Shown: positions 19,358 through 34,709 of the stretch, in pieces
Layout: each line of letters starts with the position of its first letter
How positions within the stretch are numbered: position 1 is the first letter of the stretch
Origin: a virus
DNA: 51,812 nt
Reading direction: 5' to 3' (one strand)
Virus record (IMG/VR): IMGVR_UViG_3300027847_002828
Coordinates: 1-51,812 of that record
Translations under genes and position numbers: made by a program
Notes under the pieces: generated by a model
The model's input: only the letters and a program-made list of their open reading frames with translations
Database searches by the model: none
What the model was told of the DNA's origin: nothing

Positions 19358-20260
19358 CTATCTAGGAACCTTGAATGGACGCTGCGGGACATCCCAGGAC
19401 CTGTCCAGCCCTGATGTGAAATCGACGTGTTTCCGCTTTTCGTTTTCCGGAAGTCTCGTCGGCGCTATTTTCAACAGCCTGTCACTGACCATGGACGGGG
19501 TCACAAGCTGGGGTTTTCCTACAACCTTGGGCTTCCAGTGTCCTGCCCAGGCGTCCCAGTTCACACACACCGGGTTGTATCCCCATTCACACTCTCCCTT
19601 GAGGCTTAGGTCTCTGGTCGCAGTCACATCCTCGGTTGAGCACTTCTGTGACTCGTAGACGTCCTCGTACTCATAGTAAAACCACGGGTTGTCGCCCTTT
19701 TCTTTTGGCTCAGTCAGGTCAAACACCGACACGTCACAGAGAATAAGACCTGTCGGAAGGGCGGCAACGTGTTCAATACCACCTCTCTCGAAAGCCTCCT
19801 CCCGTGTGAATTGACCCAGCTTCATATCAACCTCATCCGGAGTATCCGACTCCATTCCTCTCCAACGGAACACATAAATATTTTCTTCCGGAGGTGGGCC
19901 ACAGTAGGGAGCCGCGACAACAAGAGGCTTACCATATTCGATCATGTAGTCCAGGGACGATGACCAGAACGGCTTGGCTTCCAGGTCCTGCCCAAGGAGA
20001 AGGTCGGGAGCCATATCGCTGTCAAGCATCAACAGCAGGTCGTAGTTTTCCTCTCTGGCTAAACGAACTGCGCGGTTGCGGGTCATGGTGATCGGCGTGT
20101 CCGCCATGTCCACCAGGTTAACCCTGCCAATCCGAGAGTCCGCTTTCATCTCCGGAATGGATCTCAGGAGCCAGTCACGCACGTCAGGATGTTCAGACTT
20201 CATCCCCCCGTTGCCACCGTAACTAAATGTGCATATCAGTACGTCATGCTTCATCGGCAT
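19358..20260 (-). CDS. Glycosyltransferase-like protein (GT-A fold)
   Basis: A 300-residue protein. HDVLICTFSYGG opens a Rossmann-type strand. DTPITMTRNRAVRLAREE is followed by the metal-binding LLLMLDSDMAPDL, typical of GT-A enzymes. A His/Trp/Cys-containing acceptor region follows. It sits between a head gene and the terminase block, so head glycosylation or surface modification is plausible. ATG 20260 has GAGAG before it; ATG 20254 is a second option. Acceptor unknown. Confidence 0.75.
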   Translation of the reverse strand: MPMKHDVLICTFSYGGNGGMKSEHPDVRDWLLRSIPEMKADSRIGRVNLVDMADTPITMTRNRAVRLAREENYDLLLMLDSDMAPDLLLGQDLEAKPFWSSSLDYMIEYGKPLVVAAPYCGPPPEENIYVFRWRGMESDTPDEVDMKLGQFTREEAFERGGIEHVAALPTGLILCDVSVFDLTEPKEKGDNPWFYYEYEDVYESQKCSTEDVTATRDLSLKGECEWGYNPVCVNWDAWAGHWKPKVVGKPQLVTPSMVSDRLLKIAPTRLPENEKRKHVDFTSGLDRSWDVPQRPFKVPR

Positions 20261-20339
20261 TGTTGTCTCTCTTGTTGTGCGCCAAACTGAAACTCAAGCC
20301 TCCCATGCCACCACTACCGCCATGCTCTCTACAAACGAA

Positions 20340-20375
20340 TAGCCGCTGCTCGGTCGTGGCACCGAACAGCGGCTA
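20340..20375 (-). terminator. Strong hairpin after the 204-aa head gene (possible terminator or processing site)
   Basis: TAGCCGCTG (20340-20348) pairs with CAGCGGCTA (20367-20375). An inner TCGGT/ACCGA stem follows one mismatch, leaving a six-base loop. On the leftward strand it follows the capsid-associated gene, and the bases after it are only weakly T-rich (TTCGTTTG). It could attenuate the late operon or protect the capsid message. Confidence 0.6.
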
Positions 20376-20396
20376 CCGTCTCGGTGCCGGCAGTCT

Positions 20397-21011
20397 CTAT
20401 CTGATTGACAGGTCAATCAGCGTGTCTGTGTTAGTATCACCGGCTGTTCGTGCCGTGATAGCCGTGCCAATGGCATTCTGGCTGACTAGCAATGCATCAG
20501 CACCTGTCGCTGCCGCTGCGGCATTTCTGTCAAACCTACCACTCTCAGTCGCCCCGGCTGTGCTGGCGGCGGCTGTCTTGGCATGAACGGGATCATTGAT
20601 CGCGGCGGCCAAACCCAGGGTGGTATACGACGACTTGACCAGGCACGGACCCTTGACAATGATCCAGCAAATGTCGTCATCAAGGCAGCCAGCGGCGGGG
20701 AGGTGGTCGTCTACCACGCCCGCAACTTTCTGACTGTACGAATTTGCATTTCCGTCCACTTCCTTGCCAATTGCATCAGTCTTGAACTGGACAATTGTCT
20801 TAGGCAGCAGGGCAACCCCGCTGACGTTCCGAACGGCGATAGCGACCACGTCACCGTTGCTACGGTGCTTGGTTTCGTCTGACGGGTCCGTGTCCTGAAA
20901 GACGTGAACCTGTCCGAGAATTGAGGTCCCTGGCAAGTCTGACGAATCAACCGTCTTCCCGTGAAAGAACGTCCGCCCTCTGGCGAAAGGTGCTACTGCT
21001 CGGTCTGGCAT
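20397..21011 (-). CDS. Putative capsid decoration or head-stabilising protein
   Basis: A 204-residue, Ala/Thr/Asp-rich protein directly downstream of the major capsid gene. It is rich in predicted beta structure (GDVVAIAVRNVSGVALLP, CWIIVKGPCLVKSSYTTLGL) and ends in Thr/Asp-rich strands. Small proteins here are often head decoration proteins. A GGAGGATACGAG leader precedes ATG 21011. A strong hairpin lies just after the stop. Confidence 0.6.
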   Translation of the reverse strand: MPDRAVAPFARGRTFFHGKTVDSSDLPGTSILGQVHVFQDTDPSDETKHRSNGDVVAIAVRNVSGVALLPKTIVQFKTDAIGKEVDGNANSYSQKVAGVVDDHLPAAGCLDDDICWIIVKGPCLVKSSYTTLGLAAAINDPVHAKTAAASTAGATESGRFDRNAAAAATGADALLVSQNAIGTAITARTAGDTNTDTLIDLSIR

Positions 21012-21069
21012 CTCGTATCCTCCGTGAGGCTCTCTATTTTATTGTGTCCAAGTGCGTAACGTCTCTTTG

Positions 21070-22170
21070 CTAGGCAATTGCTGCCAGCTTCGCGAAGTGC
21101 TTGGGATTGTAACGCACGTTGCCGAAGAACCCTACGAGGAACAACCAGGCGTCCGTCTTGATGTCGTACTCGGGGCCACGGGAGGAGAACAGCACACTGT
21201 CGAGGCTGCCTAGCTCCATCTGATCCACGTTCAGTCCGTATCCAACATCGGCGGGAACGTCGAAGTCGGTGTCGATCATCACTCCGTCCTGATTCAACAC
21301 GTCGTCGAATCCTAGGTCCTGAGCACCCTTGTGCGGAACCATGATCCGCCGGAGGGATTCGATCTTGTTCTTGTATCCGTAGAACAAGTTACCGGCCAGA
21401 AGATAGATATCAGGCCGCCCGTCCTTGCCGGAAGTCTGAGTCAGCCAGATCGTTGACTGCCGGAGAACCCGCTCGCAGTTGTTGTCCCAGGATGTCGAGG
21501 ACGTTCCCCAACCTGAGCTGCTGTAGTTGATGATCTTCGGAGAGATGTAGTCATACTCCGGGTCGCCGTTGCCGTCCGGCCAGTCCGTCGCAGCATTGGC
21601 GTTCGGACTGGTTGTCAGGTCGGTACTCCACGAGCCACCCTCGTTGGCCAACGCCGTGGACTTGCCACCGTAGGTATCACTCGGCTGTGCGATACGGTCG
21701 GCGGCGACAGTCGTGCCCGTTCCGAAGAAACTCTCCAGTCCGTGCAGACGGTTCTCGTTGCCGGTCGCGTAACCGTCAATGAAAAACTCTCCGCAGAACT
21801 TGTTGCGGAGAGACTTGGTCAGCGTCGGCATGATCCGGTCGTAGCGTTTGACAATGGCGATGTCGCCCTTGTTCTCCAAACGCTCTTTCTCCGTCATCAT
21901 GTCCGTGGCTTTGTAGCCACGCCAGTCGATCTTGAGCTGACGCAGAAGATCGTGCCGGGAGAAGTCAATAGTTCCGCCGTCGCCGTAGGCGCTGACGGGC
22001 TGCTCTGCGTATTCGACATCCCAGTTGCACTCGTGGGATGACTCGTTGAACGTGATCCGGCCCTTCTGGCGGACCATCGTCAGGATGAGCCTGTTCCGTA
22101 TCGTGTTGTCAGCAGCTCCCGAGAGATACTTCGGAGCCGTGCTATGAATAATCCCAATCCACTCTGCCAT
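21070..22170 (-). CDS. Major capsid protein
   Basis: A 366-residue protein directly after the scaffold gene, the usual arrangement. Segments such as ITFNESSHECNWDVEY, AYGDGGTIDFSRHDLLRQLK and DIYLLAGNLFYGYKNKIESL, with aromatic-rich strands and a basic C-terminus (GNVRYNPKHFAKLAAIA), fit the HK97-like capsid fold. AGGAGA precedes ATG 22170. The call rests mainly on gene order, size and composition. Confidence 0.8.
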   Translation of the reverse strand: MAEWIGIIHSTAPKYLSGAADNTIRNRLILTMVRQKGRITFNESSHECNWDVEYAEQPVSAYGDGGTIDFSRHDLLRQLKIDWRGYKATDMMTEKERLENKGDIAIVKRYDRIMPTLTKSLRNKFCGEFFIDGYATGNENRLHGLESFFGTGTTVAADRIAQPSDTYGGKSTALANEGGSWSTDLTTSPNANAATDWPDGNGDPEYDYISPKIINYSSSGWGTSSTSWDNNCERVLRQSTIWLTQTSGKDGRPDIYLLAGNLFYGYKNKIESLRRIMVPHKGAQDLGFDDVLNQDGVMIDTDFDVPADVGYGLNVDQMELGSLDSVLFSSRGPEYDIKTDAWLFLVGFFGNVRYNPKHFAKLAAIA

Positions 22171-22184
22171 CTGTCAGTCTCCTA

Positions 22185-23309
22185 TCAGCCGTTTTGCGGA
22201 AGCAACCCTCGTTCTCGCATTTCTAATTCAGCGAGCTGAAGGAATGACGAATCGCCATTTTGCGGGATGCCACTCCGCTCTGAACTGTCGATTGTGCCCG
22301 ACTGGTTGGGTTGGTGATAAGCACCCTGCAATCCACGCTCTAGGAATGTCTGGTTTTGTTCCGGCTCTGTCAACCCCGGTTCTTGGTACTCTGGCTGGGC
22401 CTGTTGTTGATATTGCTGTTGCGCAAGAGATTGTTGCTGGTACTGCTGGTTAGCGTACCCCATTCCTGTCTCAAGCATATCCCTCTGCAACAGTCCTGAC
22501 GCAAGGTCCCTGATCTCTTTCGCGTCAGTTACTCCGGACGACCTGAGACGCCTTGCGTACTCCTGCATCTTGTGACCGGCAGGAGTCAGCATCTCTCCTC
22601 CAGAATCGTCAACCAGCCGGTTTCCCTGGTTGTCCAACTGAAAGAAAATCGACTTGTTCTCGTCGAGGAAATCTCGTGCAGTTGACCTTTCCCTAATCCC
22701 GTCTACTGCGTCCCTGACCCGGCTCTCGACCATGTTTTCGACACGATCATTGAGTCCCTCCCACATGAAGTCATGCGGGTTCTCCCAGAACCTCTGTCCC
22801 TCCTTGCGGAGGTATTCCCGATACTCGTTCGCCTTCTGAGCGACAATCGGATTGACGTGCTGATAACGCGGAACGAACTGCCCACTATCCGGATCCAGCT
22901 TCACCAGAGCGTCCCAGTCCTGGTCGTACTCCGGAGGGTTCCACGAGCTGGCAGGAGCTGATTCCGGTGTCGGAGGATAGTACGGTTCATCGTACTGGGC
23001 CGAACGATCCTGCTGCTGCTGGGCCAGCCAGGCGTTCTGCATCTCGCTCATCTGCCCCTGCATCTGGGGGATGGTCGCTAGACCCTGCTCCAAAGCCTGC
23101 ACGAACGTCGCGTCGTCCTCGAACTGGCTAACGTCGTAACCCCGTTCCGCGAACGCCTGCCTCGCTGACGACTCAGTGGCCGCTGGGGGTGCGTTGTACT
23201 GCTGGTTGATCTCCTCCAACCCCTGCTCAAATGTCGGCTCGGGTGTCGGTGCCTGCTCTGGAGTGGGCTGCTGGGGGACGCCTGGTTGCTCGGAGTAGCC
23301 AGTTGACAT
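22185..23309 (-). CDS. Capsid scaffolding protein
   Basis: A 374-residue, Gln/Glu/Pro-rich, highly charged protein ahead of the capsid gene. The N-terminal 40 residues are Pro-rich and disordered. Helical Glu/Gln segments follow (FVQALEQGLATIPQMQGQMS, then AWLAQQQQDRS; RVENMVESRVRDAVDGIRER), and another Gln-rich stretch lies near the end. These are typical of scaffold proteins, which guide procapsid assembly and then leave. The AGGTGA site is five bases before ATG 23309. It heads the late operon. Confidence 0.75.
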   Translation of the reverse strand: MSTGYSEQPGVPQQPTPEQAPTPEPTFEQGLEEINQQYNAPPAATESSARQAFAERGYDVSQFEDDATFVQALEQGLATIPQMQGQMSEMQNAWLAQQQQDRSAQYDEPYYPPTPESAPASSWNPPEYDQDWDALVKLDPDSGQFVPRYQHVNPIVAQKANEYREYLRKEGQRFWENPHDFMWEGLNDRVENMVESRVRDAVDGIRERSTARDFLDENKSIFFQLDNQGNRLVDDSGGEMLTPAGHKMQEYARRLRSSGVTDAKEIRDLASGLLQRDMLETGMGYANQQYQQQSLAQQQYQQQAQPEYQEPGLTEPEQNQTFLERGLQGAYHQPNQSGTIDSSERSGIPQNGDSSFLQLAELEMRERGLLPQNG

Positions 23310-23339
23310 CAGTCACCTCTCATGCTGGTTGACACCAAA

Positions 23340-23368
23340 GTTGTACACGGCCCGGTTTTCTTTTGCAA
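23340..23368 (-). promoter_or_regulatory. Candidate leftward promoter for the late operon
   Basis: On the minus strand TTGCAA (23368-23363) and TACAAC (23345-23340) are separated by 17 bases, 31 bases before the scaffold ATG. The match is moderate. It lies back to back with a rightward promoter. Confidence 0.5.
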
Positions 23369-23384
23369 TTGACAATTTTGTCGC

Positions 23385-23413
23385 TTGACATCGGTTTGCG
23401 TTTTTTGTAAATT
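23385..23413 (+). promoter_or_regulatory. Candidate rightward promoter for the early block
   Basis: TTGACA (23385-23390), a 17-base spacer and TAAATT (23408-23413) form a good sigma-70-like promoter. It starts the rightward operon whose first gene has a GGAG site six bases before ATG 23432. The CGGTTTGCGTTTTTT spacer is echoed at 27534. Confidence 0.65.
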
Positions 23414-23431
23414 TTGAAAGTCTTGGAGAAA

Positions 23432-23716
23432 ATGACAATGACGCTCAAAATCACAGACGACAAACTTATTCCAGTTTCTGCTGTTTCCAAAATCCTGCCG
23501 CACGTCAGCTACGGGACGGTCAGGAACTGGTACATGAAGGGCTGCGTTTCCCACGCTACGGGAGAGCGGGTCACCCTGGATGTTATCCAGATCGGACACC
23601 GCTTCTTCACCAGCCGAGAGTCGGTTGACGAGTTTATAAAGAGGCTCAATGGTGGGGACGAGGACCGCTCTGTCAGAACGGCTGACACGAATACTGGAGT
23701 AACCTTCTGTGAGTGA
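23432..23716 (+). CDS. DUF1580-like small HTH protein
   Basis: A 94-residue protein. The core ITDDKLIPVSAVSKILPHV, then VSYGTVRNWYMKGC, VTLDVIQIGHRFFTSRESVD and EFIKRLN matches my memory of DUF1580, a planctomycete family of helix-turn-helix-like proteins (RxW-type recognition helix, then a strand pair, then a TSREAL-type turn). It is the first gene of the rightward operon, so it probably regulates it. ATG 23432 is chosen because TTGGAGAAA precedes it; a TTG further upstream is less likely. Family call from memory, not searched. Confidence 0.7.
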   Translation: MTMTLKITDDKLIPVSAVSKILPHVSYGTVRNWYMKGCVSHATGERVTLDVIQIGHRFFTSRESVDEFIKRLNGGDEDRSVRTADTNTGVTFCE

Positions 23717-24062
23717 AGGTGACGCCATCCGCAGAGCTGACGAACTGGAAACAGAACTTCGTGAAATCAAGGAGGAGAACTACAAACTCAAAAAGCGTGT
23801 TGAGAGGCTACTTGCTCCCGAGACTATGCTGACTGCTGACGGGTTCATCGAGGCGATCACGGGCATCTCGTATCGCTTCGGCCTGCCCCCGGTCGTTGCC
23901 TACGACTACGAACAATGTGTCGAGATCCTGAAAGACCGAGATGGCATGGACCATGGTCAGGCTGTCGATTTCATGGAGTTCAATGTCCTGGGAGCCTACG
24001 TTGGAGAACGCACACCCTGTTTCATAGACAAATCGTGGAGACCAGAAGATCATGGACACTAA
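23709..24062 (+). CDS. Hypothetical coiled-coil protein
   Basis: A 117-residue protein starting at GTG 23709, overlapping the previous stop by eight bases. Residues 8-35 form a strong coiled coil (DELETELREIKEENYKLKKR), which suggests dimerisation. A mixed domain with MLTADGFIEAITGISYRFG follows. It overlaps the SSB gene by 11 bases. No family was recognised; an early accessory protein is the best description. The GTG start lacks a good ribosome-binding site. Confidence 0.6.
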   Translation: MSEGDAIRRADELETELREIKEENYKLKKRVERLLAPETMLTADGFIEAITGISYRFGLPPVVAYDYEQCVEILKDRDGMDHGQAVDFMEFNVLGAYVGERTPCFIDKSWRPEDHGH

Positions 24063-24417
24063 CGAAGTCCGGCTGAGTGGAATTGTTGACAAGGCTACGA
24101 CCCGTAACGTGGGTCAGAAGAACACCCGGCTGCTTGAAGTGGACCTCAGACAGGAAGTCCCAGCTTGGAATGGAGAGCTGGAGAGCCAGGTGATTCGCTG
24201 CCAGTGCCTTGGACGGCAAGCAGAGGAGATTGGCGAGAAGGTTCAGGAGGGGCAGAAAATCCGCATCACCGGCAAGCTGGATGGCCGTGAGTGGAACGAC
24301 AAAATATTCATCAACTGCTCCATTCAGAGCGTTGAGGTCTTGACGGTCAACGAGCAAATGCAGGACCATCGAGTCAACGAACAGCCTAGAGTAGACGATA
24401 TGGAGGTCCCGTTCTGA
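24052..24417 (+). CDS. ssb: Single-stranded DNA-binding protein
   Basis: A 121-residue OB-fold protein. The N-terminus EVRLSGIVDKATTRNVGQKN, then LLEVDLRQEV and IRITGKLDGREWNDKIF, follows the SSB strand order. It ends with DDMEVPF, close to the acidic C-terminal tip (DDDIPF) by which SSB recruits partners. It would coat ssDNA during replication and Rad52-type recombination. Shorter than bacterial SSB but normal for phage. Confidence 0.85.
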   Translation: MDTNEVRLSGIVDKATTRNVGQKNTRLLEVDLRQEVPAWNGELESQVIRCQCLGRQAEEIGEKVQEGQKIRITGKLDGREWNDKIFINCSIQSVEVLTVNEQMQDHRVNEQPRVDDMEVPF

Positions 24418-24441
24418 TCCTACTCATCAACGGAGGGAGCC

Positions 24442-24687
24442 GTGTCCAGAGACGACAACTCACTGCTTGGAGACATGATAACTACGCAAACGAAGCCGCT
24501 GAAAAACGTGATATCCAAGTATCGCAAGAGCGGCCCTGGCTCAGAGATGTCTTCGTCTCTAGCCGGGAAGCCACAGACAGTTATCGACACTGTCAACGGC
24601 AGGGTAGACGTCATGAGAATCAGGTACGAACAAGGGCTTGACCTGTGGACAGGAGAGCCTCTGGAGAAAACGAAAGGAACCAAATGA
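24442..24687 (+). CDS. Small hypothetical protein
   Basis: An 81-residue basic protein starting at GTG 24442, with GGAGGGAGCC just upstream. It contains SKYRKSGPGSEMSSSLAGKP and ends in a Lys-rich tail. No domain recognised. Its stop overlaps the next start as ATGA. It may be a small DNA-handling or host-interaction protein of the early operon. Confidence 0.6.
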   Translation: MSRDDNSLLGDMITTQTKPLKNVISKYRKSGPGSEMSSSLAGKPQTVIDTVNGRVDVMRIRYEQGLDLWTGEPLEKTKGTK

Positions 24688-24953
24688 GCAAGTTTACGGA
24701 CGATCCCGAAAACGCCGAGGTGGGCGATCTCACAGGACTGAGCAAGAACCAGTGCTTCTTGGACGGCGTTGAGTTCGGTATTTTCGTGCACGCAAACAGC
24801 GTAGCTGTGCTTCAGGGAGCAACTGAAAGGCACGAGATGGGGTCGCGTCATCGTGGGCGATTGGAGATGTTTTTCGAGGTCAACGGCGGAACTGTGGCAG
24901 ACATCAAGTGGATCAATGACGATTTAGTATCAGTGGAGATAGGCCATGCCTGA
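24684..24953 (+). CDS. Small hypothetical protein (89 aa)
   Basis: An acidic, soluble protein starting MSKFTDDPENAEVGDLTGLS, coupled by ATGA to the preceding gene. ATG 24684 is chosen because an in-frame upstream ATG at 24645 would lie inside the neighbour. It contains a strand-rich core (FGIFVHANSVAVLQGA, LEMFFEVNGGTVADIKW). Function not recognised. Confidence 0.6.
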   Translation: MSKFTDDPENAEVGDLTGLSKNQCFLDGVEFGIFVHANSVAVLQGATERHEMGSRHRGRLEMFFEVNGGTVADIKWINDDLVSVEIGHA

Positions 24954-25212
24954 CGGACAACAATGCGACAATTGCATATTCTGGACATCACACCAGAGCG
25001 GACAGGCTGGCGAGTGCTCGGCCATGTCCAACACCGACCCGGGCAACATCGTCAGGATGATCCTGATCCGGATGAATCCCGAGACAGGAGACTGGCAGCC
25101 GAACTTCGACCGTAACGTCTCCGTTGCGGTTGGCACATCGCCCACGTTCTTTTGCTCCATGCACCAGCCTGCCCAAACCCCTGACCAGGCACCTGCTGTT
25201 CAACAGGAGTAA
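24946..25212 (+). CDS. Small Cys-containing hypothetical protein
   Basis: An 88-residue protein. Cys residues occur in DNCIFWTSHQSGQAGECSAM near the start and in PTFFCSMHQPA near the end. The pattern could bind a metal ion, but the spacing is not a textbook finger. It overlaps the preceding gene by eight bases and lies two bases from the methyltransferase. Family not recognised. Confidence 0.55.
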   Translation: MPDGQQCDNCIFWTSHQSGQAGECSAMSNTDPGNIVRMILIRMNPETGDWQPNFDRNVSVAVGTSPTFFCSMHQPAQTPDQAPAVQQE

Positions 25213-25214
25213 CG

Positions 25215-26219
25215 ATGCTCTATGTGTCCCTTTTCTCCGGTGTTGGGGGGATTGATCTCGGGCTGGACCGTGCAGGAATGACCTGCGCCTACCAGGTTGA
25301 GATCGACCCCTACTGCCGGAAGGTTCTGGCCAAGCATTGGCCCGATGTGCCCAAGTGGGATGACATCAAAACCTTCCCTGGGACACATGCAATGAGTTTG
25401 CTTGGTAATGTGGACTTGGTGGCTGGAGGCTTTCCGTGCCAGCCTGTATCAAAAGCAGGAAAAATGAGAGGCGCTGCCGATGAAAGATTCCTATGGCCGG
25501 AAATGTACCGAGTTTGCAAGAAGCTCCGGCCCAGATACGTCCTGGTCGAAAACGTCACTGGGCTGCTCTCAGCTCCTGATAGGCTGGGAAGACGAGGAGG
25601 CCTGTTCGGAGGAATTCTGCGAGACCTGGCCTCGCTCGGGTATTGTGTCGAATGGCATTGCATACCGGCTTCCTCGATTAACGCGCTCCACAGGAGAGAC
25701 AGAGTCTGGATCGTGGCCTACGCCGAACACGATGGACCATCTGAAGCCTCGGGACGAGGAAACCATCGAGGAATACAACAACAGCAGGGACGGGCGGAAG
25801 AATCGGAAAGCCCTGAGCAATCTTCGACAGGCTGTGACCAGCCCGCACTATTCCAAGATGTTCCCGACACCTACCAGCAGGGACTGGAAGGATACCAGGG
25901 GGATGGCACAGACAGGAATCAATCCGGACGGGTCATCGAGGGATCGGCTGGACCAGTTACCCAGAGTCGTCTACGCAGGTTTGCCAACAGGGAAGGATCG
26001 GCCCAGTGGGGGCTTGAACCCGACGTGGGTAGAGTGGCTGATGGGGTTCCCGCTAGGATGGACCGACTTAGATCACTCGGAAACGCCGTAGTTCCACAGG
26101 TTGTCGAGTTTCTAGGACGATGCATAATGGACAGGGAAGATGTCAGAAAATCTCGGCCCAGTATACAACTGCCCAGAGTGCGGGGAGTTTCCCACTCTTG
26201 TAGAGACGACGATAGATGA
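25215..26219 (+). CDS. C5 cytosine DNA methyltransferase
   Basis: A 334-residue enzyme that moves a methyl group from S-adenosylmethionine to C5 of cytosine. Motif I is SLFSGVGGIDLGLDRAG (residues 5-21), catalytic Cys 75 lies in GGFPCQPVSKAG, motif VI is ENV (112-114), motif VIII is RRDRVWIVA, and motif X is SLGNAVVPQVVEFLG near 287-301. The target-recognition region is Gln/Gly-rich. It probably protects phage DNA from host restriction or changes expression. The last 80 bases overlap the Lar-like gene, and a second frame is nested inside. Confidence 0.9.
   Translation: MLYVSLFSGVGGIDLGLDRAGMTCAYQVEIDPYCRKVLAKHWPDVPKWDDIKTFPGTHAMSLLGNVDLVAGGFPCQPVSKAGKMRGAADERFLWPEMYRVCKKLRPRYVLVENVTGLLSAPDRLGRRGGLFGGILRDLASLGYCVEWHCIPASSINALHRRDRVWIVAYAEHDGPSEASGRGNHRGIQQQQGRAEESESPEQSSTGCDQPALFQDVPDTYQQGLEGYQGDGTDRNQSGRVIEGSAGPVTQSRLRRFANREGSAQWGLEPDVGRVADGVPARMDRLRSLGNAVVPQVVEFLGRCIMDREDVRKSRPSIQLPRVRGVSHSCRDDDR
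25480..26091 (+). CDS. Nested overlapping ORF (WPTP/WVEWLMGFP family) inside the methyltransferase
   Basis: A 203-residue frame, +1 relative to the methyltransferase and entirely inside it. It is not random translation: it holds ETWPRSGIVSNGIAYRLPRL, then SWPTPNTMDHLKPRD, then MFPTPTSRDWKD, and ends NPTWVEWLMGFPLGWTDLDH. I remember this pattern of repeated WPTP motifs and a WVEWLMGFP end from phage proteins annotated separately or as methylase-like. GAGAGG lies eight bases before ATG 25480. Both frames appear conserved at once, which implies dual coding. Function unknown. Confidence 0.7.
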   Translation: MKDSYGRKCTEFARSSGPDTSWSKTSLGCSQLLIGWEDEEACSEEFCETWPRSGIVSNGIAYRLPRLTRSTGETESGSWPTPNTMDHLKPRDEETIEEYNNSRDGRKNRKALSNLRQAVTSPHYSKMFPTPTSRDWKDTRGMAQTGINPDGSSRDRLDQLPRVVYAGLPTGKDRPSGGLNPTWVEWLMGFPLGWTDLDHSETP

Positions 26220-26337
26220 CTCTGGAGGCTCCATCGGAGCCGTCGCGTGTCGCGAATGCAGGCTTATCGCCACTGCATCAACCACACAAGACGCCATTCT
26301 CCTCTGGAATGGAATAGAAAAAGAGGATGATGACTGA
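26140..26337 (+). CDS. Lar-like restriction-alleviation zinc ribbon
   Basis: A 65-residue protein. YNCPECGEFPTLVETT, then AVACRECRLIATASTT and DAILLWNGIE, gives the CxxC...CxxC and terminal A-I-x-x-WN pattern of Lar-type proteins, which alleviate host type I restriction. It follows, and overlaps by 80 bases, a DNA methyltransferase, so the pair may form an anti-restriction unit. The family call is by motif; the function in this phage is inferred. Confidence 0.7.
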   Translation: MSENLGPVYNCPECGEFPTLVETTIDDSGGSIGAVACRECRLIATASTTQDAILLWNGIEKEDDD

Positions 26338-26968
26338 CCAGGGATTTGAAGACATTCACCAGTCGAAATACAGCCTCATTGACATGGGACTACCGTCCGA
26401 TCTCGTCATAGACTTCGGACCCAGCTTTCGACCACAGTATCTCAACCACGCTGCGAACAATGGGGCAAAACACGCTCTTGCCGTAGACGCAATCAGGAGA
26501 GAACTTGATGAAGGCATAGATTTCCACAGGGCTGACTTCAGCAGAGACGCCATCACACCCTGGATAGAAGCCTACAGGGACAGATACCCAGGAAAATGCC
26601 TCGGAATCATGTTTGACACACTGCTGCACCAGTATGCACCCATCCGCGTGCTCCAAAACCTCCTCAGCGTGCTGGACAGAGCCTGCATAGGGTGCCCTGT
26701 CATCAAGAAAGAGTCCCCAAACTGCACCTTTCTGCCGTCTGTGCCAGAACACGAGCAGGATGACCTGTTCCCAAGCTCCTGGATACCAGGAGAAAACAGG
26801 TTCGCTGATGAATCCAGGTACTCCTGGGCAAACTGGCTGTGGGGAATACCGCCCAATCTGCTCAAAACGTGGATACAACGCGAGAATTTCGACATCGTAG
26901 CCGAACAAACCGTCAAAAGACCCAACGCCTGGGACTGGTGGGGATGCTACGCCGTCAGAAAGCCGTGA
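26327..26968 (+). CDS. Putative SAM-dependent methyltransferase-like protein
   Basis: A 213-residue protein. LPSDLVIDFGPSFRPQY corresponds to the glycine-rich motif I (V-D-x-G) of class I methyltransferases. A following acidic residue sits at KHALAVDAIRRE, and LGIMFDTLLHQYAP, then IRVLQNLLSVLDRA, resembles motif IV. The glycine motif is degenerate (DFGPSF). A Trp-rich C-terminus (NAWDWWGCYAV) is unusual. It overlaps the Lar-like gene by 11 bases. ATG 26330 is an equally good start. Confidence 0.55.
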   Translation: MMTDQGFEDIHQSKYSLIDMGLPSDLVIDFGPSFRPQYLNHAANNGAKHALAVDAIRRELDEGIDFHRADFSRDAITPWIEAYRDRYPGKCLGIMFDTLLHQYAPIRVLQNLLSVLDRACIGCPVIKKESPNCTFLPSVPEHEQDDLFPSSWIPGENRFADESRYSWANWLWGIPPNLLKTWIQRENFDIVAEQTVKRPNAWDWWGCYAVRKP

Positions 26969-27638
26969 AATCCGGCTACATGGGATGCTTTTTGAGGTCC
27001 CACCCCCCCCTATATACTTAACTCCATATGCTTAAAAGCGGCTCGCCCTTTAAGTCTTTGGCCTTAAGTATATTAAGACGCAGTTCTTGTGCCCAAAATG
27101 CGGAAAATGGGCCTAAATACGGGGAAATAGCGGGGAAAACCCGGATTATTCCCCAGGTATAGAACAAATTTGTTCTATCTGCCCGTTTTTACGCCGAAAC
27201 AGGGGCAATTACGCCCCATTTGGGGGTATACCGGGGGTCTTTTAGGGGGTTTTAGAGCAAAAATTCCCCGAGATGTAGGTATAAGTATCAGCGAGCCGCT
27301 GGGGGCCTGCGGCCCTTCCGTCGTCGTAAGTCCTTTGATAGCCACAGGTTGGCTCCACGTCCCGCCACCGACGGACGCGATTCCTCTACCCGGTGCCTGA
27401 TTGGCAAAGTATCTACTATACCTAGTCAGTAGGAATCGACCCGTATCATTTTGCTGCATCATTTTGCAACACCAGGGGCAGAATGATACACCCATCGGAA
27501 TCCGTTGATATGACGTAAGTCGTTTCATACCAACGGTTTACGTTTTTTTGAGACGTTTGGCACGGGTTGTGCATCTTGTTTTCTCGTCGCCGTTCCGACT
27601 ACCGGACGGGTCATCCACTGACTAGGGAAGCAAGTACA
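26969..27638 (+). other. Repeat-rich non-coding region (possible origin or control region)
   Basis: No convincing gene lies here. Between 27017 and 27077 there are five CTTAA/TTAAG elements. A 20-bp perfect palindrome follows at 27159. Bases 27325-27340 and 27514-27529 are a 16-bp near-repeat (14/16). ATCATTTTGC is directly repeated at 27445 and 27458, and GTATCATT (27443) is inverted at 27482-27489. CGGTTTACGTTTTTT at 27534 matches 23392. Such density fits an origin or an early regulatory hub. Confidence 0.5.
27159..27178. promoter_or_regulatory. 20-bp perfect palindrome, operator-like
   Basis: ATAGAACAAATTTGTTCTAT reads the same on both strands. Its arms (AGAAC/GTTCT) and AT-rich centre are typical of a dimeric repressor site. 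It lies in the large non-coding region between two rightward gene blocks. Confidence 0.6.
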
Positions 27639-28163
27639 ATGGCACTCACAATCACAACCGAGAATGCTGCGGACCTGCTCATCGCTTCAACCATCAGCAA
27701 GGAACAATTCGAGGCGTTCTTTGCTGCCACATTGGCCGACAAGGTCAAGGTGGTCCGGCAGGATACCACCAACGTCAAGCATACTGACAAGGGCGGGTTG
27801 TGGATACGGACCCCTGACATGGTCTGTCCAGTCAAGCCCGAATCCTACGCCAAGAAATTGGCCGATGGCAAGGCGGCGAAGGCAACCTACAACGCAGCCG
27901 TCAACATGCTGGATGGCCAGTGGCAAGCCTTCTTCACCTGTGATGATCGGGCGGGTTTGGCCGAAGCTTGTCGAGAGCATGGGGCTGGTTGCTTGGCCAG
28001 CGTCCTAGATTTCATCGACGGGCTTGGCGACGATGCCACCGTCGATACGGCCAGAATTGAGGCCGTCAGCATGAGCCGGATCGACGCCCATGCCAAGGCC
28101 GTCAAGGCTGCTGAGAAGGACGATGAGACAGACGCCGAGTATGCTGCCCGATCTGGCAAGTGA
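27639..28163 (+). CDS. Hypothetical acidic protein
   Basis: A 174-residue protein, Ala- and Asp-rich, starting MALTITTENAADLLIAS. ATG 27639 is used; upstream in-frame sequence lacks protein character. AGGGA lies ten bases before it. The middle contains NAAVNMLDGQWQAFFTCDDR, and the C-terminus is charged (AKAVKAAEKDDETDAEYAAR). A strong terminator begins 22 bases after its stop, so this gene may be expressed at high level by itself. Family not recognised. Confidence 0.65.
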   Translation: MALTITTENAADLLIASTISKEQFEAFFAATLADKVKVVRQDTTNVKHTDKGGLWIRTPDMVCPVKPESYAKKLADGKAAKATYNAAVNMLDGQWQAFFTCDDRAGLAEACREHGAGCLASVLDFIDGLGDDATVDTARIEAVSMSRIDAHAKAVKAAEKDDETDAEYAARSGK

Positions 28164-28184
28164 GGCCGATACGGACCCGCTGCC

Positions 28185-28219
28185 AAGCCCCGCTGGACTA
28201 CGGTTCAGCGGGGCTTTCT
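28185..28219 (+). terminator. Rho-independent-type terminator
   Basis: AAGCCCCGCTG (28185-28195) pairs perfectly with CAGCGGGGCTT (28206-28216), an 11-bp GC-rich stem with a ten-base loop. TTTCTG follows. It lies directly after the 174-aa gene in the same direction. Confidence 0.75.
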
Positions 28220-28246
28220 GCGTTAACTCCGGAGCCTAGTCCGGGG

Positions 28247-28402
28247 CGGATCGAAAACGCCGAGGATCGTCTGTGCGGACTCGCAATCTTCGATCCGACA
28301 CATCCTACGCACAACCGATCCGGGTCGATTCTGAGCGATTCTGAGGACTCTGGAGCGTTATCGTGGCCAACGGGACCGACGAGATTTTGACCGATCCGAT
28401 CC
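28247..28402 (+). repeat. Cluster of CGATCC/GGATCG motifs (iteron-like)
   Basis: Within 156 bp, CGATCC or its complement occurs at 28248, 28264, 28291, 28316, 28392 and 28397, far above chance. CGGATCGAA at 28247-28255 pairs with TTCGATCCG at 28289-28297, and CGATTCTGAG is tandemly repeated at 28326 and 28336. The stretch 28220-28661 otherwise shows no supported gene. Confidence 0.6.
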
Positions 28403-28661
28403 AGATACCACCCACCCACTATGCCACAGTAGGTGCCAGGCACCCACGTTGTCTAGATACCGCCAGTAGCCTTGCCACTCCACTCAGTACGTTGGCCATG
28501 CCACTCCCTGGTACGTCAACAGACTGCCAGAACGACATCCTGTCAGGCCTGGCCTGGCGAGTGGCTAGCGAAGAGTGCCAGTGGCATCATAGTACAAATG
28601 GAAGCGACTCGTCATGTAGCACGGTCGCGTATGTTGTTGTTGTGTTAGCAGAGGAAAGATC

Positions 28662-28958
28662 ATGGCTATGGAATACACAGTTGCACAGTTGCAGAGTACG
28701 GAGGCTAGCAGCCTGGCGGACGATCTTGCATGGTTGCAAGGTAACCGGGTTACCCACTTTATCGAAGAGGATGGTGAGTTGGTATCCTGCCACGGTGAGT
28801 TTGTTGGTGATGAGCCTAGCCTTTGGCCAAGCGGTCTTGGTACGGAACAACACGTTGACCACCATGCCCAGTGGTACGTTGATGCTGTTGGTATCTCTCT
28901 TGTCAGCCGTACTGCTGGCAAGGTTTACATGCCTACCTTGGGTATCCCGATTGGCTAG
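28662..28958 (+). CDS. Small hypothetical protein
   Basis: A 98-residue protein starting MAMEYTVAQLQSTEASSLAD. GAGGAAAG lies four bases before ATG 28662, a strong site. It is rich in Val, Gly and His, with no signal or membrane segment (VTHFIEEDGELVSCHGEFVG). A longer frame on the same strand (28363-29115) reads as non-protein-like low complexity and was not accepted. Function unknown. Confidence 0.6.
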   Translation: MAMEYTVAQLQSTEASSLADDLAWLQGNRVTHFIEEDGELVSCHGEFVGDEPSLWPSGLGTEQHVDHHAQWYVDAVGISLVSRTAGKVYMPTLGIPIG

Positions 28959-29111
28959 CAGGATAGCCTGGGACGCTTGTTACCGACCCACCACCACCAT
29001 GGTCAGAAGCACACCTAGTGTTCCTGGCCATGGTAGGGAGGCGGGGATGTCTGGCTTGGGCTACTTGAGTATGCCGCCAGAGCAACCTAAGCCGCCAGAA
29101 AGAGAGCAACC

Positions 29112-29378
29112 ATGACTCAAATACTCTGGACTGCCGCCAATTTAGCAGCGATGGCACTGTTCGTATGGATGACCCTGAGACCCAAGCAGAAAGGAGAACT
29201 GGACTACACGATCACGGCTAGTCCTCCAGAGAGTGAGGCTGGTGGGTTCGATCTTGAGCCGCCAATGGCTAGTCGCTTGCACGGCAACCCAGGCTGCACA
29301 AAGGGCCATCTGCCTGCTGAGTACGCTGAGAAACTGGGTAAGAAATTACACATTGTCTACGGTTCACACAAAGACTAA
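29112..29378 (+). CDS. Small membrane-anchored protein with MoxR-like peptide
   Basis: An 88-residue protein. Residues about 4-21 (ILWTAANLAAMALFVWMT) form a membrane helix, followed by a basic stretch. Residues 45-56 read GFDLEPPMASRL, ten of twelve identical to residues 139-150 of the MoxR-like ATPase two genes downstream (GFELEPPMANRL), a region near its sensor and arginine-finger positions. It may compete for, or derive from, the ATPase partner site. The similarity is seen directly; its meaning is inferred. Confidence 0.55.
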   Translation: MTQILWTAANLAAMALFVWMTLRPKQKGELDYTITASPPESEAGGFDLEPPMASRLHGNPGCTKGHLPAEYAEKLGKKLHIVYGSHKD

Positions 29379-29395
29379 CGAGAAGGAAAGCAACG

Positions 29396-30262
29396 ATGAA
29401 TGAAGCACAACGCTACCCACTGACTGGTCAACAAGTCTTCTGGGACAACGCACCCACACCCCGTGAGGATCTTCGGAAGGTTCTCGATGCCCACAATCTG
29501 TCTGCTCTGCTGCCAGACGAGGTGACTAATGAGAAGGCTCTGAGACAGGCACTCTCTGGGTTCACCAGTGAGGTGCCAGCACCAAAGGGGCATGTCTGGC
29601 TGATCCGTGGACTGAAGAACCTCAAGCAGAATGGGTACGAGGTCAAGCTGGAGCGGAAGGACGAGACTGAGAACGACGCTAGTCAGGCGTTCCGTGTCAA
29701 GATCTTCAACCGCTTCGTCGTCATTGAGAATGACAATCAGTCGTTCTCTGCCATCCCCATGGTGCAGGTGGACAAGGAGCAGAGGATTCAGGAACTCTAC
29801 GATGAAGCCAAGGCTACCGTTCCTGGCTGTGACGTGGGAGCCATCCTGACAAGGATCTTGAAGACCTATCGTCCGATGGTCGTATCGTTACGTCCGATGG
29901 GCGGACTGTACTGGATCCCGGACGTACACAAGGTTGCGTTCGAGTCCTTCTGCGATGACCTGTTGGCTGCGTGTCCCGGTAACGTCGTCACTCCCATGAA
30001 CTGGGAGATGACTCCCAAGGGACTGAGCCGTGTCAAGGACTCCATGCTCAAGGAGATGCAGAAGGAATGCCAGTCACTGCTGGTTGATGTCCTCGATCCC
30101 ACCCTTGGACACGAGGCTATGGACAACAGGCTGAGACGGTGCATCGAACTTCAGGATGAAGTGACCCACTCTGACGAGATACTCGGTGAGTTCAGCGAGA
30201 CTCTCAATGCGATTCTTGCTTCAGCCAGACAAGCTGCCACACACGGACTGCTGAATTCCTAG
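29396..30262 (+). CDS. Hypothetical protein of the MoxR-VWA cassette
   Basis: A 288-residue soluble protein starting MNEAQRYPLTGQQVFWDNAP. It has predominantly helical, charged character and an internal segment GGLYWIPDVHKVAFESFCDD. Proteins of this type sit next to MoxR-like ATPase and VWA genes in other phages, I believe, but I cannot name the domain with certainty. It is followed after 40 bases by the ATPase, so a shared pathway is likely. Confidence 0.6.
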   Translation: MNEAQRYPLTGQQVFWDNAPTPREDLRKVLDAHNLSALLPDEVTNEKALRQALSGFTSEVPAPKGHVWLIRGLKNLKQNGYEVKLERKDETENDASQAFRVKIFNRFVVIENDNQSFSAIPMVQVDKEQRIQELYDEAKATVPGCDVGAILTRILKTYRPMVVSLRPMGGLYWIPDVHKVAFESFCDDLLAACPGNVVTPMNWEMTPKGLSRVKDSMLKEMQKECQSLLVDVLDPTLGHEAMDNRLRRCIELQDEVTHSDEILGEFSETLNAILASARQAATHGLLNS

Positions 30263-30302
30263 TAAGTCACCACAAGGACGCGGGCCACAAGGAGAGACTG
30301 AG

Positions 30303-31484
30303 ATGGTATCAATGGCTAATGCTACTGGCTGGGTTACAGCCCAAGTTGGCGAGACTCCCCTGTTCTCTGGGTCGCCTGGCTCAGTGAAGACTGAGGTTGC
30401 CAAGGCTTTCGTTCGCTGGGCTGGGAGGCAACCCTTCTGCCTCATTGGGTCGATCATCGACGCACCTGACGTAGGTGGCTACCCCGGCATCGTGGAGGTG
30501 GATGGTAAGAGGCATTGTGAGATGATGCCCCTTGACTGGGCGATGAAGACACATGATCAGCCCTCTGCCCTGATCATCGACGAGCTGACTACCAGCCCAC
30601 CACCTGTGCAGGCTGCCATGCTCCGCATCATCTGTGAGCGGAAGATTGGCAACTATGACCTGCCAGATGACCTGTGGATCATCTCCATGTGCAACCCTCC
30701 TGGCTGTGCAGCTAACGGGTTCGAGCTTGAGCCTCCGATGGCCAACAGGCTGGGTCACTACAAATGGAAGACTCCGTGGGACACGGTAATGGCTGGATGG
30801 AGAAACGGACTGAACTTCCCTGACGCTGATTACCCTGAGGTCCCTGACAACTGGATGGAGTACCAGCCAGCCATTGGGAATCTCTGTGCAGCCTTTCGTG
30901 AGCGGAAGCCTGAGTTGTTCGAGCCTGCTACCGACAGTGCTGGCAACATGAAGCTCTCTGACTCGGAGCAGGGTGGTGCATACGGGACTGCCCGTAGTTG
31001 GACTGCCCTACAGAAAGTCTGGGCTGGCCTTGAGTCAGTCGGTCTTGGTGACGAGGAGAAGTTTGAGGCTGGCGTAGCCTATGTCGGTGTCGATGCTGCT
31101 GCTGAGTTCGTCACCTACTGCAAGGAACTGGACCTGCCTGATCCTGAAGAGTGGCTGACTGCCTTCCATGACAACCCTTCTGCCGACTTCACTCCGCTAG
31201 ACAGGCCTGACCTGACGATTGCTTTCCTTGGCAGCTTGGAATACGCCGTCAAGAAAGACAACACCAAGGAACGGTGGGAAGCAGCGATGGCTCTTCTCAA
31301 CAGCCTTGTCACCAAGCAGGGACAGAAGGTGTTTGTCGTCGAGACTGGACAGGCACTCCACGGCAAGGACAGTGACGGTGTCAGCTATGCGAAGCACAAC
31401 TATACCCTGCCTGCAACACTCGGTGTGGAGCTTCAGTCCATGCTGCGTGCCAGGCTCAACGCCAGTGACAGAAGGAGTGCATGA
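30303..31484 (+). CDS. MoxR-type AAA+ ATPase
   Basis: A 393-residue ATPase. The P-loop is GSPGSVKT at residues 23-30, unusual because Val replaces the Gly before Lys. Walker B is ALIIDE (89-94), sensor 1 is near CNPP (130-133), and GFELEPPMANRL (139-150) precedes the arginine-finger region. MoxR ATPases act as chaperones with VWA-domain partners, and such a partner follows here with overlapping stop and start codons. GGAG lies nine bases before ATG 30303. The target is unknown. Confidence 0.85.
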   Translation: MVSMANATGWVTAQVGETPLFSGSPGSVKTEVAKAFVRWAGRQPFCLIGSIIDAPDVGGYPGIVEVDGKRHCEMMPLDWAMKTHDQPSALIIDELTTSPPPVQAAMLRIICERKIGNYDLPDDLWIISMCNPPGCAANGFELEPPMANRLGHYKWKTPWDTVMAGWRNGLNFPDADYPEVPDNWMEYQPAIGNLCAAFRERKPELFEPATDSAGNMKLSDSEQGGAYGTARSWTALQKVWAGLESVGLGDEEKFEAGVAYVGVDAAAEFVTYCKELDLPDPEEWLTAFHDNPSADFTPLDRPDLTIAFLGSLEYAVKKDNTKERWEAAMALLNSLVTKQGQKVFVVETGQALHGKDSDGVSYAKHNYTLPATLGVELQSMLRARLNASDRRSA

Positions 31485-32701
31485 TGGGTCAGAAGTTTGG
31501 AATCGACGAGAGTAGGTTCGTAGTTTATCAACAACTCCCTTATCTACAGAGGCACATCAATTCCCTTATCCCGGTAGAGTCACCGGGTCTGGGTACATGC
31601 GCCATGGACCAGCATGGTCGTCTATACTACGACCCTGACGTGTTCACTAATTGGACACTGAAAGAGTGCGGTGGGGTATGCCTCCACGAGCTACTCCATG
31701 ACGTGCTCAACCACTGTAGCAGGGCTAAGGACCTGTTTGGGGACCATCCCTCACAGGAACAGCTTGAGAAGTGGAACATTGCCTGCGACATCGTGATCAA
31801 CCCCATAGTCAGGGATGCTAACTTCAACCTGCCAGAAGGCTGCGTCTGGCCCTCTGACTACGGGTTCGACGAAGGCCTGACGGAGCTGGAATACTACCAA
31901 GCTCTGCCAGACAAGCCTGAGCGACCGGGACGTAAGACTCCTGGTGACGGTGACGGAGGTGATCCTAGCGACTCACCTGAAGGTGGCTCCTGCTCTGACG
32001 GGCAGGAAAGGGATTGGGAGCTTGGCCCACCCACCAAGGGTAACCCCGGCATGAACGGGGTGGACAAGAAGATTCTTCAGGCGCAGACAGCCAAGTCTGC
32101 TGAAGAACACTCGAAGACCAAGGGTTCGCTGCCGGGTGCTATCTCCCGTCTGTGCGACGATATCCTTCGCCCGACTGTTGACCCGAGGAAGCTGCTCCAA
32201 TCGGCTGTAAGGTATGCTGTTGCCTCTGTGAGGGGTCACCAGAACCTGAACTGGAAGCGTCCGTCACGACGACAGGTTGCCGGGTGCGGTATGCTGCCGT
32301 CTCGACAGGATCCTCTTCCCAAGGTTGCGATACTGGCTGACACGTCAGCTAGTATGAACAAGAAGGACCTAGAGATGGCACTCGGTGTCATCGACAAGGT
32401 TCTGACCGCACACCAGACCAGCATCACGGTCTACGCTGGTGATGCTTCACTGGGTGTGGCTCAGGACGTCTTCAACGTGAAGAAGGTTCAGTTTGATCAG
32501 GCTGGTGGAGGTACTGACATGGGTGGCCTGGCCACTGAGATTCAGGAACTCTCCGACCCTGATGTGATCATCATCTGTACCGATGGAGAGACTGACTGGC
32601 CGACTGAGAAGCTGAGGGCCAAGACGGTGGCTTGCGTCACCCGTGAGTCGAACTACTACCCAGTTCCTGACTGGATGACGAAGGTCCAGCTTGAAGTATG
32701 A
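31484..32701 (+). CDS. VWA-domain protein with N-terminal metallopeptidase-like motif
   Basis: A 405-residue protein. The N-terminal domain has HELLHDVLNH (residues 68-77), an HExxHxxxxH zinc-binding pattern. A Pro/Gly-rich linker follows. The C-terminal VWA domain has the MIDAS set: DTSAS (about 284), GGGTDM (about 342) and CTDGETDW (about 365). This is the usual partner of a MoxR ATPase. ATG 31484 (TGATG coupling, GGAG seven bases away) is preferred over ATG 31481. Whether the zinc motif is active is unknown. Confidence 0.8.
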   Translation: MGQKFGIDESRFVVYQQLPYLQRHINSLIPVESPGLGTCAMDQHGRLYYDPDVFTNWTLKECGGVCLHELLHDVLNHCSRAKDLFGDHPSQEQLEKWNIACDIVINPIVRDANFNLPEGCVWPSDYGFDEGLTELEYYQALPDKPERPGRKTPGDGDGGDPSDSPEGGSCSDGQERDWELGPPTKGNPGMNGVDKKILQAQTAKSAEEHSKTKGSLPGAISRLCDDILRPTVDPRKLLQSAVRYAVASVRGHQNLNWKRPSRRQVAGCGMLPSRQDPLPKVAILADTSASMNKKDLEMALGVIDKVLTAHQTSITVYAGDASLGVAQDVFNVKKVQFDQAGGGTDMGGLATEIQELSDPDVIIICTDGETDWPTEKLRAKTVACVTRESNYYPVPDWMTKVQLEV

Positions 32702-34481: not shown

Positions 34482-34709
34482 ATGAGAGGCACACAACCAA
34501 AGCACCCGGATGTCTACGTCCCACTGAATGGTGAGGACGGCAACGCCTTTGCAATACTGGGTCGGGTCACTCAAGCCTTGAAGAGTGCTGGTGTATCCCG
34601 TGAGGAGATCAAAGCGTTCCGCCTGGAGGCAACGTCTGGTGACTACAACAACCTGCTGCAAGTTGTCCTGTCATGGATCAACGAGGGCGGCGAAGAGGAG
34701 GACGAGTGA
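34482..34709 (+). CDS. Conserved small protein of phage and actinobacterial type
   Basis: A 75-residue protein. HPDVYVPLNGEDGNAFAILG, then RVTQALKSAGV, EEIKAFRLEATSGDYNNLLQ and WINEG matches a small family that I recall from phages and bacteria of many groups. It is a single acidic helical domain with a Glu-rich end. A strong AGGAGG site precedes ATG 34482. Its stop shares TGATG with the recombinase start. Function unknown despite wide distribution. Confidence 0.7.
   Translation: MRGTQPKHPDVYVPLNGEDGNAFAILGRVTQALKSAGVSREEIKAFRLEATSGDYNNLLQVVLSWINEGGEEEDE

Follow-up and report, generated by a model that had tools for sequence, protein, structure and literature searches.

Two overlapping reading frames of a tailed-phage locus probably encode the two parts of one split C5-cytosine DNA methyltransferase

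The question raised by this phage locus is whether one stretch of DNA serves two conserved proteins at once and, if it does, what the second protein contributes to the first. The window, meaning the whole stretch of DNA that was analysed, is a virus record of 51,812 bases, and its family matches to a portal, a terminase, a major head protein and an SSB point to a tailed phage. The original prediction placed a C5-methyltransferase frame and a second frame nested within it at one locus, and both open frames are present, the former at 25215-26219 with 334 aa and the latter at 25480-26091 with 203 aa; one stretch of DNA is read as GLEPDVGRVADGVPARMDRL in the enzyme frame and as NPTWVEWLMGFPLGWTDLDH in the nested frame, and the enzyme end is overlapped by a Lar-like ORF at 26140-26337, again as predicted. 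We call the enzyme frame alpha and the nested frame beta. The locus very probably encodes a C5-methyltransferase split in the manner of M.EcoHK31I, in which alpha would provide the catalytic large domain and beta the small domain, with assembly in trans. Its features are as follows.

25215..26219, + strand: alpha, the C5-methyltransferase large-domain frame, 334 aa (PF00145, E=2.9e-43; phrog_363, 1.9e-75; AF2 model)
25480..26091, + strand: beta, the nested +1 frame, 203 aa, proposed small domain (phrog_1008, 2.3e-18; wobble constraint; periodicity switch)
25215..25736, + strand: alpha residues 1-174, catalytic domain with motifs I-VIII (aligned to M.HhaI 7-176; pLDDT mostly >85)
25434-25442, + strand: PCQ of alpha (read in translation)
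25548-25556, + strand: ENV of alpha (read in translation)
25468..25471, + strand: GAGG, possible ribosome-binding site of beta, 8 nt before the ATG (weak)
25726..26007, + strand: beta residues 83-176, variable TRD-like block (low conservation with conserved flanks; exchange pattern between relatives)
26014..26064, + strand: beta residues 179-195, LNPTWVEWLMGFPLGWT, motif IX equivalent (alignment conservation, profile comparisons)
25737..26075, + strand: alpha residues 175-287, linker over beta-coding DNA, mostly predicted disordered (AF2 model; substitution pattern)
26076..26153, + strand: alpha residues 288-313, motif X (LGNAVVPQ) and C-terminal helix (invariant residues; confident helix 294-313; wobble free again)
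26140..26337, + strand: Lar-like zinc-ribbon ORF overlapping the alpha 3' end, a neighbour outside the enzyme (PF14354, 2.7e-5, and TIGR03655, 1.8e-5, both below cut-off)

The neighbouring ORF is called Lar-like only, as it scores 24.8 bits against a curated cut-off of 28.6 for PF14354 and 24.9 against 39.6 for TIGR03655. Elsewhere in the window, adjoining genes at 30303-31484 and 31481-32701 have matches to a PHROG labelled 'ATPase' and to DUF2201, a putative metallopeptidase that has a VWA-like domain, and a resolvase-type serine recombinase at 34673-35491 (PF00239; PHROG integrase) is a possible integrase of this phage. A search of the phage collection for near-identical DNA gave no match to window positions 20000-32000.

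The openness of the nested frame goes well beyond chance. When the synonymous codons of alpha were shuffled, the 203-codon beta frame stayed open in 27 of 20,000 shuffles, with a mean of 4.9 stops, and the real +2 frame of alpha holds 12 stops over the same span. Across viral loci picked by likeness to alpha, the beta span is open in 80/80 against 1.55/80 expected from the shuffles, which is the fair comparator here, since a beta HMM match within an open frame defined this span and its zero stops hold by construction. Frequent stops in the nested frame of homologous methyltransferases, which the original prediction had named as evidence against itself, were not seen in the loci examined.

The pattern of selection also changes where the second frame begins. 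The beta peptide WVEWLMGF, by which most beta-picked loci had been found, introduces a bias at alpha codons 271-278; the set carrying this bias (73 sequences) gave a third-position entropy of 1.88 bits outside the overlap (10 sites) and 0.93 bits inside it (59 sites; p=9.9e-6). The wobble test was therefore repeated on the alpha-picked loci whose alpha DNA is not common to the beta-picked loci (67/80, 65 of them distinct), where entropy at fourfold sites of alpha was 1.89 bits over codons 1-45 (14 sites), 1.03 bits over codons 98-287 (40 sites), a nearly fixed 0.24 bits over codons 266-287 at motif IX (10 sites) and again 1.76 bits over codons 289-310 at motif X (9 sites). For both flanks against the core of the overlap, p was 1.2e-7 in these 65 loci.

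Pairwise substitutions tell the same frames apart, as position 1 of an alpha codon is the wobble position of beta. Between the window and its relative L082, substitutions at alpha positions 1, 2 and 3 number 4, 1, 15 in codons 1-88; 9, 4, 7 in codons 89-174; 23, 6, 2 in codons 175-287; 4, 3, 6 in codons 288-313; and 9, 3, 2 in codons 314-334, where Lar overlaps. For L002 the corresponding counts are 7, 4, 22; 11, 2, 5; 29, 8, 4; 1, 2, 3; and 13, 4, 3. Fisher tests of the codons before against those within the overlap gave p=9.5e-6 (L082) and 1.6e-6 (L002), and the window and L082 share 189/203 residues of beta against 167/199 of alpha in the overlap core. This move of substitutions from alpha position 3 to alpha position 1 means that constraint is stronger on beta over the alpha linker, and stronger on alpha before beta begins and at motif X. 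Judged from sequence, both frames are conserved as proteins, and the predicted dual coding, with 25480-26091 as a real protein-coding frame, is thereby strongly supported. As a separate observation, the Lar-like gene at 26140-26337, too, is in frame +1 relative to alpha, and over alpha codons 314-334, where substitutions fall mostly on alpha position 1, it looks as if Lar were the constrained frame and the alpha tail free.

Searching the nested protein, as had been advised, matched phrog_1008 'DNA methyltransferase' over residues 1-197 (E=2.3e-18), a family also matched by 71/71 members of alignment A1; beta alone had no match in Pfam, NCBIfam or PADLOC. The same +1 overlap of alpha and beta was found in 80/80 beta-picked viral loci (the best 80 of a search of viral contigs in which, among the 600 stretches listed, at least 595 encode a relative), in 80/80 alpha-picked viral loci (the best 80 of 599, ranked by likeness to the window alpha and so representing this clade rather than C5-methyltransferases at large) and in 80/80 bacterial-genome loci (the best 80 of 347, picked by beta), the last from many phyla as judged by record title. 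The HMMs used to classify loci were built from the beta-picked viral loci, so the independent sets are the alpha-picked and genome ones; the alpha DNA of 13/80 alpha-picked loci is common to the beta-picked loci. Contig ends cut L003, L005 and L026, and the alpha of L027 and L054 matches in two pieces in two frames. A census of loci with motif IX in beta, motif X in alpha and no motif IX in alpha counted 79/80 beta-picked viral loci (the exception, L003, is cut by the contig end), 79/80 alpha-picked loci (in the exception, L146, motif IX is a variant not caught by the pattern) and 73/80 bacterial-genome loci. Motif X was not found in the matched alpha ORF of 6/80 genome loci, and in the two of these that were inspected alpha is in two pieces, by an in-frame stop in L196 and by a change of frame in L225. 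In single-sequence tblastn searches of the phage collection, beta matched 95 records and alpha 1521, of which 149 cover at least 80% of the length of alpha, and the nested layout is therefore not general to phage C5-methyltransferases.

Alpha has the anatomy of a methyltransferase from which one domain is missing. It carries motifs I-VIII of the PF00145 large domain, with PCQ and ENV, its profile aligns with M.HhaI 7-176 (motifs I-VIII; E about 1e-41), and an M.HhaI structure was the top Foldseek hit of its AF2 model. Against single-chain enzymes alpha aligned over motifs I-VIII only, no counterpart of M.HhaI 177-296 was found in it by profile alignment, and neither a TRD nor motif IX was found on the alpha chain by alignment, AF2 model or motif census. 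A second stretch aligns with M.HhaI 297-320 (motif X) at 1.2 bits, which is not significant by itself; motif X is assigned to alpha because G289, N290, V293 and P294 are invariant in alignment A2 and because of the AF2 model, in which the catalytic domain and the C-terminal helix are confident and residues 175-245 and 262-284 fall below 50. The alpha stretch over beta-coding DNA is thus probably a little constrained, unstructured tether. Alpha alone among the seven ORFs examined was matched by PADLOC, the 25 families shown being methyltransferases, which makes the enzyme probably an orphan; no restriction gene was recognised among these seven ORFs.

What alpha appears to lack has an equivalent in beta. 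The consensus of beta runs from a conserved TWPRSGMMRNGxAYxLPPL through a variable block to LNPTWVEWLMGFPxGWTDL, and the motif IX equivalent, LNPTWVEWLMGFP in the window, is C-terminal to the variable, TRD-like block. In six of six single-chain controls in alignment A3, motif IX reads RR(L/V)TPxExxxL(Q/M)GF in the enzyme's own frame; the classic Arg and Glu are not kept in beta, and the best local match of beta to single-chain enzymes, which does set its motif on motif IX, is weak (hhalign probability 2.1%, E 0.023). The assignment becomes firmer in two steps, because beta is homologous to actinophage chains (probability 99.3%, E=2.7e-20) that carry the beta-type motif shortly before motif X on one chain, and these in turn align with single-chain enzymes IX on IX and X on X, again weakly (probability 5.4%, E 0.0071). 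By alignment, then, motif IX is absent from alpha and its equivalent is present in beta. The AF2 model of beta alone is a poor fold (mean pLDDT 59). Profile searches of PDB sequences returned six designed proteins for beta (best E 5.8e-4), which we took as spurious, and three unrelated proteins for the actinophage chains (best E 0.03).

According to PMC5944983, the TRD of C5-methyltransferases sits between motifs VIII and IX. Over 886 locus pairs with catalytic identity of at least 65%, drawn from 109 loci with redundant contigs included, mean identity was 0.72 in the catalytic domain, 0.63 in the N-terminal part of beta, 0.38 in its variable block and 0.75 in motif IX. Some pairs fall to 0.31 in the variable block at a catalytic identity of 0.86 and a motif IX identity of 0.71; between the window and L082 the block stays at 0.96. 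The aligned block thus displays the cassette-like exchange expected of a TRD. The same DNA is read in alpha too, so the exchange pattern alone is silent on which frame uses it, and the TRD is placed on beta rather than alpha because of the substitution pattern and the predicted disorder of alpha, which favour this choice.

We propose that the locus encodes one C5-cytosine DNA methyltransferase as two polypeptides whose genes are written over each other. Alpha would be the large catalytic domain, in which motifs I-VIII are followed by a long linker and then by the motif X helix, folded back against the large domain; the anatomy suggests that alpha comes by this partition of motifs by reading through the beta-coding DNA until it arrives at its own motif X. 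Beta would start by internal initiation inside alpha, one frame over, and give the small domain with the variable target-recognition block and motif IX, and the two chains would bind each other in trans to form an active methylating enzyme of the M.EcoHK31I kind. The ribosome-binding site predicted for the nested frame is present but modest, a GAGG 8 nt before the ATG that is unchanged in L082, L002, L084 and L085 and whose bases also encode alpha. Beside its Lar-like neighbour, the enzyme would likely serve the phage as an orphan methyltransferase, modifying the phage DNA and so protecting it from host restriction.

Among the roles that had been suggested for the nested product, cofactor comes near, and the evidence suggests that the product is the small domain which the same enzyme otherwise lacks, with a TRD-like block and motif IX; no finding spoke for an inhibitor, and a separate anti-restriction function was not indicated. 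A separate regulator, inhibitor or anti-restriction protein, acting on methyltransferase or restriction without being half of the enzyme, would likewise explain a conserved and independently constrained frame beside a Lar-like gene, but we consider it improbable: alpha is without motif IX and a folded TRD and beta has the motif IX equivalent, related actinophages join homologous segments to motif X on one chain, and an overlapping alpha accompanies beta in 160/160 beta-picked loci (viral and genome). It may instead be the assembled enzyme, or the Lar-like neighbour, that protects against restriction. Ribosomal frameshifting from alpha into beta, giving a fused transframe protein in place of internal initiation, would fit the constant +1 phase of beta and the modest ribosome-binding site of the window. 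A single +1 shift, however, leaves motif X in the alpha frame, so that a complete enzyme would need a second shift, and the beta frame is constrained upstream of the catalytic-domain end (for example at codons 151-156), as if it started there; a beta-frame start codon with a Shine-Dalgarno match of at least 4 nt occurs in 69/72 loci against 48/72 in the +2 frame, a modest excess to which we give little weight. Such frameshifting seems to us quite improbable.

The HMM of beta also matches the +1 frame of single-chain or truncated controls (L263, 1.2e-11; L262, 2.3e-9; L261, 8e-8; L265, 9.2e-5), where its matches end before motif IX, and the likeness within the first half of beta is therefore partly forced by the motifs of alpha. 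This mirroring would suit the view that the whole nested frame is a by-product, kept open and similar by alpha motifs and codon use. That view is already contradicted, and we give it next to no credence: 27 open frames in 20,000 shuffles are too few, the substitutions fall on alpha position 1, and third positions are fixed at motif IX and free at motif X, which is as conserved in alpha. We find it equally hard to credit that the frame is a hidden mobile element, like the out-of-frame HNH endonuclease in a phage methylase for which PMC11855218 offers a precedent. A weak phrog_15463 HNH endonuclease match (E=0.033) points that way, but the strong matches are to methyltransferase families, and the frame is in 80/80 alpha-picked loci, with no insertion that has empty relatives.

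With the split enzyme as the preferred explanation, we looked at how its relatives are annotated and arranged. Phages of Mycobacterium, Paenibacillus, Lactobacillus, Bacteroides, Acinetobacter and a cyanobacterium include further examples of the layout. Of nine phage records examined in which the nested layout is complete, eight have a single frame annotated: alpha only in seven (ctgrD200, ctjLE16, Mycobacterium SG4, Lactobacillus Lc-Nu, Bacteroides BF1-TP2, Acinetobacter ABMM1 and phage C72C1), and beta only in Cylindrospermopsis Cr-LKS3 (L095, 656-1393), where beta is the annotated 'methyltransferase' and the catalytic alpha frame is unannotated. Paenibacillus Bloom has both frames annotated as DNA cytosine methyltransferase. 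The layout is incomplete in Microcystis Mwe-JY08, which is cut by the record end and has a short ORF in the beta frame, and in Mycobacterium Llama (L090), where a single site near 1369 shifts the frame of alpha and beta alike. More mycobacteriophage records have a two-piece match like that of Llama, and in L085 alpha and beta change frame together near 3695-3781, with overlapping matches that suggest a short insertion or duplication.

Actinophage relatives, to go by their reading frames, appear to be M.AquI-like pairs and re-fused single chains. LittleB and Vash have motif IX and a GNGVV-type motif X on the +1 chain, as in M.AquI, while Silvy, Baddon and L278 have motifs IX and X in the alpha frame and a +1 frame that still encodes beta-like N-terminal parts. 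The frame carrying IX and X varies among L258 (1132-2269), L267 (1177-2254), L259 (712-2256), L260 (679-2838) and L278 (1336-3057). Small E. coli plasmids also gave alpha-like hits, and the one read (L279) encodes a single chain with an in-frame motif IX. A tree was made from 107 loci, of which 6 had no passing alpha domain, leaving 101 rows; its architecture labels are crude patterns (L082 and L094 are labelled 'other' despite both frames, and the label 'nested' needs 12 changes), and we used it only for the separation of classic chains and the place of the actinophage forms. With a midpoint root, the tree splits the seven control chains (L257, L262-L266, L279) from the remaining 94 rows (100/100), and the actinophage forms lie inside the dual-coded set (96/96 and 98/84), as does the single chain of Vibrio 1.233 (L261), on a long branch with weak support (86/68).

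The points of interest are the breadth of this layout, its half-annotation and the assignment of one domain to each frame. Overlapping genes are usually discussed as an old protein and an unrelated new one; here the two frames are very probably two domains of one enzyme. It seems fairly likely that a large phage and prophage clade keeps its two enzyme domains in two frames in this way, with the catalytic domain and motif X in alpha, the TRD and motif IX in the +1 frame and the alpha reading of the TRD region a mere tether; that specificity evolves in this clade by exchange of beta cassettes under an open, nearly free alpha frame; that some actinophages have moved IX and X between frames, giving split and re-fused forms; and that annotation often covers half of the enzyme. 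A record annotated in one frame would omit one half of the enzyme, probably its specificity half or its catalytic half, and cloning or specificity prediction from that frame alone would then fail. The locus is also a natural model for the evolution of a variable recognition module within a gene that has to remain open in the other frame.

Comparison with known systems begins with M.EcoHK31I, whose small chain was reportedly found by Lee et al. in 1995 to be read in another frame inside the large-chain gene, an overlap like the one in the window. The likeness to M.EcoHK31I is one of layout as described. In M.EcoHK31I (YGGCCR), according to PMC3404938, motif IX is on a separate, smaller polypeptide and the large one has motifs I-VIII and X; the window enzyme would likewise be two polypeptides, with motifs I-VIII and X on the large chain and motif IX on the smaller one, the latter by position and the two-step profile comparison, the direct comparison being weak. 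The same paper assigns the predicted TRD of M.EcoHK31I to the large subunit, whereas the evidence from the window favours the small chain; the window gene also differs in lying in a phage, with no restriction gene recognised among the seven ORFs examined. M.AquI (CYCGRG), also described there, is a C5-methyltransferase that occurs naturally as two chains, the large one with motifs I-VIII and the small one with both IX and X; this is unlike the window, where motif X is in alpha and no GNAVVPQ-like motif was found in beta. The actinophage pairs LittleB 79/78 and Vash 32/33 look M.AquI-like. Both halves are already catalogued in PHROGs as 'DNA methyltransferase', phrog_1008 for the nested frame and phrog_363 for the alpha frame, but as two separate families, and the entries examined do not mention two frames of one locus. 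A literature search that left most subscription journals outside it yielded no description of nested C5-methyltransferase subunits widespread in phages. PMC11855218 likewise describes a phage methylase gene in which a further frame encodes a second protein; that one differs in being an inserted mobile element that codes for an endonuclease and not a conserved half of the enzyme. The split type is known from M.EcoHK31I; the member described here is new, and the breadth of its occurrence is notable.
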